From positions 64,301 to 128,300 of the forward strand of contig JAFTSA010000001.1 of NCBI GenBank assembly GCA_017461985.1: a stretch of DNA of 64,000 nt, read 5' to 3'. Positions within the stretch are counted from its first letter, which is position 1, and each line of letters starts with the position of its first letter. Of the stretch, positions 33,888 through 37,793 are shown piece by piece. A program made the translations under genes and the position numbers. Below the pieces are notes generated by a model, which was not told the origin of the DNA, searched no databases, and saw nothing but the letters and a program-made list of their open reading frames with translations. Source of the stretch: Clostridia bacterium. Lineage in GTDB: Bacteria; Bacillota; Clostridia; Christensenellales; CAG-917.

Positions 33888-34586
33888 TTATGAGGAGAAT
33901 TCCACGTAAAGTGCGCAAAGGTCGTTGACTGATTCCGCTTCAACAAACCTGTCGTGGTCAAAACCTTTGAGAGAGTTGATTGACGCCCCCATCATAAATC
34001 TTGAAAGGCTGTCACCGATATGGTAGCTGACGGTGATCTCACCAAAAACTCCGCTATCAGCGATTGCGGTCTTCAACTCGTTGTAGCAGTTGCGTTGAAA
34101 CGCAGGTCTGTCACTGGTTGCCATGACGTAGACTGCAGTTGCGCCATCATCATTGAGGAGGCTGACTACGTTGCCGATATACCCAGGAGAGGGCAGGACT
34201 GTGCCTGCGGTTTCATTGTAGGCAAACACCACTTGACCAAAGCCATCCACAACAAAACTGACTATAGTGCTGTCAGTTGATGACAACCCGTCACTTAGGT
34301 CGGTGTCCTCACTGCCTCTATTAATCCACACAGACACAAAGGTGTAGTTTTCCTCTGCGGTGTCAGGCTTTTGAGTCATATAGGCGTAGATTGACACGGA
34401 CAGGATTATGACGATTGCTGCAAGAATCAAAAGAATGAGAGAGGCCACTGTTTGCTTGAAAACTCTCATAGCCTTTTCATTTTGACGGAGGCGGTTTATG
34501 GGCGAAATTTTCACGCGGTCAAGGACGTCGGGTGTCATATCGCCAGACTCTTGTTTCAATTGTTTCTTTATGTCCTTGATTTTCAT
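33888..34586 (-). CDS. Putative membrane-bound anti-sigma factor
   Basis: A protein of 232 residues. A short cytoplasmic N-terminal part (about 45 residues, basic) is followed by one membrane helix (about 48-70) and an extracytoplasmic domain of ~160 residues with strand-rich segments such as VVSFVVDGFGQVVFAYN. No zinc-type HxxxCxxC anti-sigma motif is present, so the assignment rests on topology and on the 4-base overlap with the ECF sigma gene just upstream, a standard sigma/anti-sigma arrangement. The lipoprotein gene 140 bases downstream may be part of the same unit. No family match that I recognise. Confidence 0.65.
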   Translation of the reverse strand: MKIKDIKKQLKQESGDMTPDVLDRVKISPINRLRQNEKAMRVFKQTVASLILLILAAIVIILSVSIYAYMTQKPDTAEENYTFVSVWINRGSEDTDLSDGLSSTDSTIVSFVVDGFGQVVFAYNETAGTVLPSPGYIGNVVSLLNDDGATAVYVMATSDRPAFQRNCYNELKTAIADSGVFGEITVSYHIGDSLSRFMMGASINSLKGFDHDRFVEAESVNDLCALYVEFSS

Positions 34587-35119
34587 AGGTCCTCCTCCGA
34601 GTAGTTGTTTTTGATTTTGTTGAGAGCATTTTTATACGTCCATAGCACAGTGCCTAAGGGCTTGTCCAGCATCTCCGCTATCTCTCTATGCTTGAATCCC
34701 GATATGAGGTGCAGGCTGATTATTTGTGCCTCGCTTTCGTTCAGCACCTTCTTCATCACATTGAGTAGGGGGCTTGACACCTTGTCATCTATTGTGTATT
34801 GCCCACCTATCTTTGCACCCTTATCGTCAAAGTCAATGGACATCTCATGCTTTTGTTTGTTCAGTTCATTGAGAGTCAAGTTCTTTGCAATAGTGTATAT
34901 CCACGCAAGAGTGTTTGACCCCGCCTTGTACATATTTGCAGACAGACGGATGCGGATGTATGTGTTTTGCATCACGTCTTCCGCAAGGTGATGATTGTTG
35001 CAAATGGACAAAATGAAAGAGTACAAGCCTGACTTGGTCTGGTTGTAGAGTTCTTCAAAGGCGACTTCATCACCCCTAGCGATGTGGAGCATCAAGTTGT
35101 CAAGGGTTATTCTGTCCAT
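34583..35119 (-). CDS. ECF-type RNA polymerase sigma factor
   Basis: A protein of 178 residues with region 2 (FEELYNQTKSGLYSFILSIC, HLAEDVMQNTYIRIR, then N-T-L-A-W-I-Y-T-I-A-K-N) and region 4 (SEAQIISLHLISGFKHREIA with E-M-L-D-K-P-L-G-T-V). It recruits RNA polymerase to stress or cell-surface genes. The ATG at 35119 is chosen over an in-frame TTG at 35155, which lies within the -35 box. It has no Shine-Dalgarno site. The -10 box TATAAT ends seven bases before the ATG, and the ATG is inside one arm of a palindrome, so the mRNA is probably leaderless and autoregulated. Co-transcribed with the putative anti-sigma gene. Confidence 0.88.
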   Translation of the reverse strand: MDRITLDNLMLHIARGDEVAFEELYNQTKSGLYSFILSICNNHHLAEDVMQNTYIRIRLSANMYKAGSNTLAWIYTIAKNLTLNELNKQKHEMSIDFDDKGAKIGGQYTIDDKVSSPLLNVMKKVLNESEAQIISLHLISGFKHREIAEMLDKPLGTVLWTYKNALNKIKNNYSEEDL

Positions 35120-35155
35120 ACAGGATATTATATCACTGTATGGAAGATTTTTCAA
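35115..35155. promoter_or_regulatory. ECF sigma promoter and dyad with a start codon in each arm
   Basis: Minus strand: TTGAAA (35155-35150), a 17-base spacer and TATAAT (35132-35127). A dyad TCCATACAG (35115-35123), 12 bases, CTGTATGGA (35136-35144) is centred on the -10 region. The minus-strand ATG of the sigma gene (35119) and the plus-strand ATG of the small ORF (35140) both sit in the arms, as TGTATGGA. Confidence 0.65.
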
Positions 35156-35316
35156 CTGTCAATATTTGTCTGGCAAAAGAGAAAAAATCCGCTTGCAAAT
35201 ATATGGCTATTCGTGAGGGCAAAACCTATGGACAAATGTGCAAATTGACATATTTTTATATGTGCCGAAATGGTGAGAGAAAATATCTAGGAAGGTTGGA
35301 ACGTATGCACAAATGA
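35140..35316 (+). CDS. Candidate 58-residue cysteine-containing small protein
   Basis: A 58-codon frame divergent from the ECF sigma gene. It begins MEDFSTVNIC, has a central ACKYMAIREGKTYGQMC, then Y-F-Y-M-C-R-N-G-E-R-K-Y-L and a basic end. It contains four Cys, is strongly basic and has no signal or membrane segment. Its ATG lies in the right arm of the dyad at 35115-35144 and its TGA is followed immediately by a hairpin terminator, which supports a real gene. No ribosome site is visible, so translation from a leaderless mRNA would be needed, and the plus-strand -35 box is weak. No family recognised; a small zinc-binding regulator is one possibility. Confidence 0.45.
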   Translation: MEDFSTVNICLAKEKKSACKYMAIREGKTYGQMCKLTYFYMCRNGERKYLGRLERMHK

Positions 35317-35348
35317 GAAAATCCCACCAGGTTTGACGTGGGATTTTC
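35317..35348 (+). terminator. Hairpin directly after the small ORF
   Basis: GAAAATCCCAC (35317-35327) with GTGGGATTTTC (35338-35348), a perfect 11-bp stem with a ten-base loop. The T run is short (TTTT within the stem). The rest of the gap to 35458 shows only a weak CGATG/CATCG stem near 35417-35453. Confidence 0.6.
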
Positions 35349-35458: not shown

Positions 35459-36160
35459 TCACTTTTCATTGAGGATGATGACGCTGAGAGGGTCGATGTC
35501 AACTCCGTCTTTGCTCATCTCAAAGTGCAGGTGATTGCCGTCCAAGGACTCTTTTGCCATGGTGGTGGACATAGTGCCGATGACGTCTCCTTCAGCCACT
35601 GTGTCACCTGCTTTCAGGGTGACGCCGTCACCAAGAGAGAAGTAGCGTGATTCATATCCGTCCTTGTGGGTGATGATGACGTAGTTGCCGTCAAGAGCAT
35701 CGTAGCCAACTTCTTTCACTGTGCCTCCTGCCACTGCCAGCACTCGCAAATCCTCTGCAACAAAGTCCACTGCAAGGTGGGTGGAATATTGACCGAGGGT
35801 GGAGTTCCACACAAGCACTGTGTCAGAGTAGTTCACTGTCACTGTGCCCATGCAAGGTGCGGTGAAGGTGAGAGGGGTGTCTACAGGGGTGTCGCCCACA
35901 GGGGGATCAGGTTTGACGCTAGGCTTGTCGCTAGGATTGTCGCTAGGCTTGTCGTCAGGGTCACCAACGGTGGGGATATCCGTGTTGTCGTTGTTGTTTT
36001 GTTCACCATCGATGTCGATGGATTGTTCTCCAAAGTTGCCGGTGGCAGCCAGGGCAATCACCGTTGCCACAGATGCGATACACAGCAAAATAAGAAGATA
36101 CATTGCGTTTCTTTTCATAAAGCCACTAAATCTTTTGGTGGCAACTGCTATTTTACTCAT
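35459..36160 (-). CDS. SpoIIQ-like M23 family peptidase
   Basis: A protein of 233 residues. An N-terminal membrane helix (about 19-40) is followed by a linker of Asp/Pro/Lys/Ser repeats (D-D-K-P-S-D-N-P-S-D-K-P) and a LytM/M23 domain. The zinc ligands are visible as THLAVDF (His, Asp) and N-H-L-H-F-E (second His of HxH), so the enzyme may be active. The sequence T-L-G-Q-Y-S-T-H before the first ligand resembles SpoIIQ, the forespore membrane protein that links to SpoIIIAH across the septum. It may therefore be a sporulation factor or a general cell-wall endopeptidase. Divergent from the acyl-CoA synthetase-like gene. GAGG precedes the start. Confidence 0.8.
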   Translation of the reverse strand: MSKIAVATKRFSGFMKRNAMYLLILLCIASVATVIALAATGNFGEQSIDIDGEQNNNDNTDIPTVGDPDDKPSDNPSDKPSVKPDPPVGDTPVDTPLTFTAPCMGTVTVNYSDTVLVWNSTLGQYSTHLAVDFVAEDLRVLAVAGGTVKEVGYDALDGNYVIITHKDGYESRYFSLGDGVTLKAGDTVAEGDVIGTMSTTMAKESLDGNHLHFEMSKDGVDIDPLSVIILNEK

Positions 36161-36260: not shown

Positions 36261-36290
36261 TTGACGGCAGGAATTGAAAAAAGGTATAAT
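36261..36290 (+). promoter_or_regulatory. Promoter predicted to give a leaderless mRNA
   Basis: TTGACG (36261-36266), an 18-base spacer and perfect TATAAT (36285-36290). Six bases separate the -10 box from the ATG at 36297. Confidence 0.7.
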
Positions 36291-36296
36291 AAAAAT

Positions 36297-37793
36297 ATGG
36301 ATTACAACAAGACTATGTACAACTTTATGAGGGACTATCACGTGAAGGAGAATCTTCACGCGGTCACTCGTGGAAAAGTGCATCTGTCTTTTGACCGCCT
36401 TGACAGAGAAGTGCGCCGTGTTGCAGGCGGTCTTTGGAAACTTGGCGTAAGACAAGGTGACGTGGTTATGTCCGCCCTCCCCAACCTTGAGCAAGCGGTG
36501 TCTTTGTTGTATGCAACAACCCTTATCGGTGCAATCTTTGCACCCGTCCACCCCCTGTTGTCCGAAAGGGAATTTGTGAAAGAGGTCAAACTCCAAAACC
36601 CCAAGGTCCTTGCAATCTCAGACATCAATTTTTCTAGGTTTGCAAAGCACAAAGAGGGCGCAAAACTGGTGTATTGCCCCTATATGCTTCACGCATTTTT
36701 CGGGTTGCCTCTTGCAAAGCACTTTGAGGAATACAAGGGTGACGGCAATATTCCCGCCCTTCATATGCACTCGGGTGGCACTTCTGGTGTGCCAAAAACC
36801 GTTGTTTTGTCCCACTACGGCGCAAACGCACTGGTTGACAATCTGCTCACATCAATCCCCTACGACTTTGACAAAAAGGACTCAATGCTGGTCACACTCC
36901 CCATGTTCCACGGATTTGGACTTATCGTCGGTGTCCATGCATCTCTGTCCACAGATATGACAGCAGTGCTTATCCCTCGTTTCAGTGGAAAGATTGCCCT
37001 TGACGCCATAAGAAAAAACGGCGTCACCACCGTCATTGCAATCCCTAGAATGTTGACAAAATTCCTTGAAACAAAAGGATTTGAAGGACCAGACGTGTCA
37101 ACTCTTGCCAACGTCTTTGTGGGCGGAGATATTCTCACCAAAAAACTTGCTCTTGACTTCAATGAAAGGATGGAAAGGGCAGGGGCAACCGCCGTTGCAC
37201 AACAAGGCTACGGACTTACTGAAATCGGCAGTGTCTGCGTTTTGTCACCAAAGGACGGAGAAGTGGGTTCAATCGGCAGAACAATCAACAACGTCGTGCC
37301 TCTTATCATTGACGACAATGACAATATCCTTCCTGACGGCGAAAAGGGTGAGTTGGTCCTTGAAAGCAATCAAACAATGCTTGGATACATTGGCAGTGAC
37401 GAGGAGGCTTTTGTCACCATTGATGGCGTCAAATATCTCCGCACCGGTGATATATTCTCAAAAGAGGGCAATGACCTCACTTTCTACGGCAGAAAAAAAC
37501 GCCTCATCAAAATCTCTGGTATGAACGTTTTCCCCAGCGAAATTGAGAGGGTTGCAAGAGAACTTGATTTTGTGGGCACTTGCGCCGCCTTTGAAAAAAT
37601 TGTCAACGGCAAAACCCAAATCAAACTTGTCATTGAAGGCACTCTCACCGAAAAACAAAGAGAAGAGGTGAGAAAATATATAGGCAAAAACCTTTCCCAC
37701 TGGCATATCCCCGGCATTGTCACCACTGTAGACAAAATGCCATATACCGCAATAGGAAAGATTGATTACGTCAAGTTGCAGAATATTGATTAA
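36297..37793 (+). CDS. AMP-binding enzyme, acyl-CoA synthetase-like
   Basis: A protein of 498 residues of the ANL superfamily. The ATP loop is HSGGTSGVPKTVVLSH, then P-M-F-H-G-F-G, the adenylate motif QQGYGLTEIGSV, the hinge YLRTGDIF and the C-terminal lysine region PYTAIGKIDYVKL. It activates a carboxylate as acyl-AMP and probably forms an acyl-CoA or acyl-thioester; the substrate is unknown (a medium-chain or aromatic acid is possible). The start at 36297 is supported by the promoter geometry; an in-frame start at 36231 would lie upstream of the promoter. No ribosome site, so a leaderless mRNA is likely. Single-gene transcript. Confidence 0.88.
   Translation: MDYNKTMYNFMRDYHVKENLHAVTRGKVHLSFDRLDREVRRVAGGLWKLGVRQGDVVMSALPNLEQAVSLLYATTLIGAIFAPVHPLLSEREFVKEVKLQNPKVLAISDINFSRFAKHKEGAKLVYCPYMLHAFFGLPLAKHFEEYKGDGNIPALHMHSGGTSGVPKTVVLSHYGANALVDNLLTSIPYDFDKKDSMLVTLPMFHGFGLIVGVHASLSTDMTAVLIPRFSGKIALDAIRKNGVTTVIAIPRMLTKFLETKGFEGPDVSTLANVFVGGDILTKKLALDFNERMERAGATAVAQQGYGLTEIGSVCVLSPKDGEVGSIGRTINNVVPLIIDDNDNILPDGEKGELVLESNQTMLGYIGSDEEAFVTIDGVKYLRTGDIFSKEGNDLTFYGRKKRLIKISGMNVFPSEIERVARELDFVGTCAAFEKIVNGKTQIKLVIEGTLTEKQREEVRKYIGKNLSHWHIPGIVTTVDKMPYTAIGKIDYVKLQNID

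Follow-up and report, generated by a model that had tools for sequence, protein, structure and literature searches.

A predicted leaderless ECF sigma factor gene with a candidate palindromic operator over its start codon in gut Clostridia

Results and discussion

In the reading that we hold to be fairly probable, the ECF sigma factor gene of this locus is expressed from an extended −10 promoter as a predicted leaderless mRNA, and a genus-specific palindrome lying over this promoter is a candidate operator for a dimeric repressor, while the small open frame on the opposite strand arises by chance. The reading is drawn from comparative analysis of the sequence, in which the leaderless promoter can be followed across a family and the palindrome in two species.

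Organization of the locus and identity of the sigma factor

The features of the locus are collected in Table 1; ‘the window’ denotes the whole 64 kb stretch of DNA that was analysed. The minus strand carries, in this order, the M23 peptidase gene, a hairpin, the promoter, the ECF sigma gene, the anti-sigma-like gene and the gene of a List_Bact_rpt surface protein. For comparison we used a sister species, G002 (JAFVYE010000119, a Clostridia MAG from sheep colon), in which the order AMP-ligase, M23, sigma, anti-sigma-like gene is identical. In the third member of the genus (G001) the contig ends within the M23 gene, and the comparison of the palindrome rests on two species.

Table 1. Coordinates of the features of the sigma locus in the window
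Feature	Position	Strand	Remarks
ECF-type sigma factor gene	34583..35119	-	ATG at 35119; predicted leaderless
Sigma promoter, TTGAAA-17-TATAAT, extended TGn	35127..35155	-	Promoter scan; kept in the sister species
Palindrome TCCATACAG-N12-CTGTATGGA, candidate operator	35115..35144	.	Extends over sigma promoter and start codon
Gene of an anti-sigma-like single-TM protein	33888..34586	-	Sequence, and synteny in G002
58-codon open frame	35140..35316	+	Most likely not a conserved gene
11-bp hairpin, arms 35317-35327/35338-35348	35317..35348	-	Most likely the M23 gene terminator
M23 peptidase gene	35459..36160	-	Pfam PF01551, 1.7e-21; same strand as sigma, upstream

The sigma protein matches Pfam Sigma70_r2 (3e-10) and Sigma70_r4 (1e-5), as well as TIGR02937 (sigma70-ECF) above its cut-off. 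With sigma-70 regions 2 and 4 only, in about 180 amino acids, it is, as judged from its sequence, a stress-type ECF sigma factor of gut Clostridia. Orthologs are present in 20 of the 43 family genomes, and the G002 counterpart is 83% identical. The ATG of the anti-sigma-like gene overlaps the sigma stop codon (ATGA); the membrane protein that it encodes, syntenic in G002, has no match to an anti-sigma family in Pfam or NCBIfam. Distant ECF paralogs from other genera (L040, L041 and L043) have in common an upstream TTGGCAAAA ... TTGTTATA-like motif, placed before an SD-led start, which is perhaps an autoregulated ECF promoter.

A leaderless context kept in the family

The sigma promoter obtains a score of 11/12 in the promoter scan, the best of the region, and is conserved in the sister species. 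Its −10 box occupies positions 35132-35127, and as only 7 nt separate the end of this box from the ATG, transcription is expected to start at, or adjoining, the A of the start codon. The initial annotation had described the gene as leaderless, and the context predicted for such a gene recurs in five genera: a −10-like hexamer ending 6–10 nt 5′ of the ATG, with no clear Shine–Dalgarno (SD) sequence, precedes 17/19 family orthologs with readable upstream sequence, in 13 cases with a TGn. These 17 orthologs (genera g1, g3, g4, g6 and g10) are related, and hence do not represent 17 independent cases. In one of the two exceptions, L019, a GGAGG stands at a greater distance from the start, and a leader is possible there; the loose 4-base SD flags raised for L026 and L129 looked on inspection unlike real SDs. 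The sigma gene thus shows the placement of the −10 box, the lack of an SD and the retention in orthologs that characterize a leaderless gene. That it is leaderless, and that this is conserved across the family, is a well supported prediction.

This context is uncommon in the window, where 34 of the 57 long ORFs have an SD-like start and only 3/57 a strong leaderless context, a share that is estimated from the window alone and not genome-wide. The neighbouring AMP-ligase gene (plus strand), one of these three, looks leaderless too: in the region 36270-36300 a TATAAT ends 6 nt 5′ of its ATG at 36300. The TATAAT-6-ATG arrangement is apparently kept in all three genus members, as read back for the other two genomes from translated frames, with the last bases inferred from residues.

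A palindrome over the promoter, conserved in two species

The palindrome (arms 35115-35123 and 35136-35144, 9 bp each, with a 12-base spacer) lies where the initial annotation had placed it, overlapping the sigma −10 box, and both arms are exact in G002. A perfect 9-bp inverted repeat with a spacer of 3–20 nt is found by chance in a 601-nt stretch in about 4% of shuffles. In the whole 64 kb we counted 24 such repeats, compared with 6–7 in shuffled sequence (about four times as many), an excess that is probably due in part to terminators. Taken alone, the palindrome is therefore only mildly unusual, and it is its conservation that makes it credible.

Between the two species, the left arm, which lies inside the promoter spacer, is identical at 9/9 positions, compared with 1/5 for the remainder of this spacer; the right arm is also identical at 9/9. 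Four-fold sites are 48% identical (24/50), the spacer between the M23 gene and the hairpin 49%, and the DNA of the small-ORF body 42%. One explanation would be that the palindrome is functionless, a chance repeat that has not yet drifted between the two species. Only two species can be compared, the start codon and the encoded Met-Asp constrain part of the right arm, and perfect repeats of this length are as frequent in the window as stated above. The left arm, however, belongs neither to the promoter hexamers nor to the sigma coding sequence, and its complete identity where neutral sites are 42–48% identical corresponds to roughly one chance in a thousand. We therefore consider a functionless palindrome to be unlikely: the conservation of the left arm points, within the limits of two species, to selection on the palindrome. 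What we observe in both is a conserved palindrome overlapping a promoter.

The genome under study and G002 have one copy of the palindrome each, and the remaining 41 family genomes have none. A search allowing three mismatches returned no second site in the genome under study and one chance-like site in G002, which rules out an operator recurring through the genome. Beyond the genus, the palindrome was not found among the family orthologs; the nearest genus (L017) has just ATAC/GTAT remnants, with a spacing that differs by 1 bp. Exact matches in viral contigs stand in unrelated sequence context, and some are terminator-like. A single site per genome fits either a dedicated regulator or none at all, and no regulator gene that could provide the binding protein was found in the immediate neighbourhood of the locus.

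The hairpin between the M23 and sigma genes

The initial annotation had noted a hairpin directly after the stop codon of the small ORF. The hairpin is indeed there, but it reads better on the other strand. Read on the minus strand, it comes after the M23 gene, and its GC-rich counterpart in G002 is followed on that strand by TTTTT, whereas the plus-strand sequence after the hairpin (AAGGGGGAG) contains no T run; most likely, therefore, it serves to terminate M23 transcription. In the window the T run is weak, and the hairpin was not called by the scanner, its loop of 10 exceeding the limit of 8. A role as terminator of the small ORF is ruled out, the T run being on the wrong strand.

This terminator-like hairpin, which separates the M23 gene from the palindrome in both species, also weighs on the possibility that the palindrome acts in RNA, with transcripts reading through from M23 folding so as to hide the sigma start codon and only the leaderless transcript being translated. 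The minus-strand fold is indeed stable (−16.9 kcal/mol, z −4.0 in the window; −14.3, z −2.3 in G002) and the AUG lies inside an arm. Only read-through RNA would form this structure, though, the leaderless mRNA being devoid of the 5′ arm, and the arms, identical in both species, offer no compensatory change to test. We regard an action in RNA as quite unlikely. Of the earlier proposal that a single site could block both transcription and translation, the first half is retained, since a DNA site could block transcription; a block of translation is not supported, because the leaderless mRNA contains just the ATGGA of one arm.

The small plus-strand frame

The plus-strand frame does have the 58 codons, four cysteines and basic character (many Lys/Arg) attributed to it, and each arm of the palindrome does contain a start codon. 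The two start codons are nevertheless one coincidence, as an inverted repeat mirrors any ATG that it covers, and the ATG of the small ORF exists because the palindrome mirrors that of sigma. Judged by shuffling, the probability that a frame this long opens at the mirrored ATG is 2%; in G002 the mirrored ATG opens an unrelated frame of 53 codons (probability 7%). The local alignment of the two peptides is no better than that of shuffled sequences (p 0.39), and the global alignment is slightly above (p 0.033), helped by ME..ST, most of the shared residues lying in the initial part, over the promoter. The homology search suggested with the initial annotation, run on 39 other genomes, yielded no relative with an E-value below 0.01, and the peptide has no Pfam or NCBIfam match. 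Synonymous-biased change in a conserved frame, also looked for, was not observed. Ranked against segments of real genes, the codon score stands at the 7th percentile, yet it exceeds that of 90% of other short ORFs; composition alone does not exclude coding. The different G002 peptide, the lack of relatives and the weak coding signal together argue against a conserved gene, and the small ORF has most likely arisen by chance. The role of sigma-system regulator once proposed for its product fails by the refuting condition set with the initial annotation: G002 keeps the palindrome, the sigma gene, the anti-sigma-like gene and M23 but does not conserve the ORF, so that of the expected pairing of palindrome and ORF with sigma only that of the palindrome is seen in this relative.

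Could the palindrome instead be a bidirectional promoter, serving sigma on one side and, on the other, a small, basic, fast-evolving protein that regulates the sigma system, with both mRNAs leaderless? In the −10 region the minus strand has TATAAT and the plus strand TATTAT, the predicted starts are about 18–20 bp apart, near the 18 bp described as typical of bidirectional promoters in PMC10268837, and a frame of 53–58 codons is open from the mirrored ATG in both species. Against this, the plus strand has neither a −35 element nor a TGn and the scan reports no plus-strand promoter at the palindrome. The peptides, without family match, are unalignable beyond chance and the body DNA diverges to the extent given above, compared with 83% identity for the sigma protein. 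We find such a promoter very unlikely, and most improbable the fuller version in which two mirrored promoters and start codons form at once a bidirectional leaderless promoter and an operator, with the fast-evolving basic protein feeding back on the ECF sigma factor.

A model for the operator and comparison with known systems

In simple repression, a dimeric helix-turn-helix repressor binds a palindrome placed over a promoter. In the model that we favour, the housekeeping RNA polymerase would transcribe the sigma gene from the extended −10 promoter into a leaderless mRNA, whose start point would fall on or adjoin the A of the ATG. The half-sites are 21 bp apart, that is two helical turns, which would place the arms on the same face of the helix and would fit a dimeric DNA-binding protein. 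As the −10 box, the start point, the start codon and some of the promoter spacer all lie under the palindrome, exclusion of RNA polymerase would be the simplest mechanism of repression, and the genus-specific palindrome is probably the operator of a dimeric repressor acting in this way. The plus-strand frame, which begins at the mirrored sigma ATG, would be open for 58 codons by chance, and the near-symmetric −10 box, acting weakly in the divergent direction, would account for any plus-strand RNA.

According to Zheng et al. (2011, PMC3160421), leaderless genes carry a TANNNT box some 12 bp upstream of the start codon, and the −10 box of our sigma gene is likewise placed for a start at the ATG, with no SD. 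Leaderless ECF sigma genes have precedents in sigJ of Streptomyces coelicolor (PMC3160421) and in one promoter of M. tuberculosis sigE (PMC10027907). In Firmicutes, leaderless genes were found mainly in Lactobacillales and Mycoplasma (PMC3160421), unlike the present gene, predicted to be leaderless in a family of gut Clostridia. Symmetry of the −10 element gives rise to bidirectional bacterial promoters (Warman et al. 2021, as described in PMC10268837); the sigma promoter resembles those of that description in its near-symmetric −10 box and in possible divergent starts separated by about 18 bp, and differs in its weak plus-strand elements and in starts that are predicted from sequence. An example of simple repression is found in Corynebacterium glutamicum, where the MarR-type CrtR is encoded divergently from the crt operon and its crtR transcript is leaderless (PMC5401885). 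The sigma locus shares with this system a candidate operator within the promoter region and one gene that is leaderless, here by prediction, but it has no adjacent regulator gene and its opposite-strand ORF is probably no gene.

The locus as a whole is mostly ordinary. It illustrates how a palindrome over a start codon can create a spurious divergent ‘gene’. The palindrome provides one well defined operator candidate in a Clostridia ECF sigma system. Finally, few leaderless genes have been reported so far in Clostridia, and our results suggest that one family of this class has conserved the leaderless expression of an ECF sigma factor.
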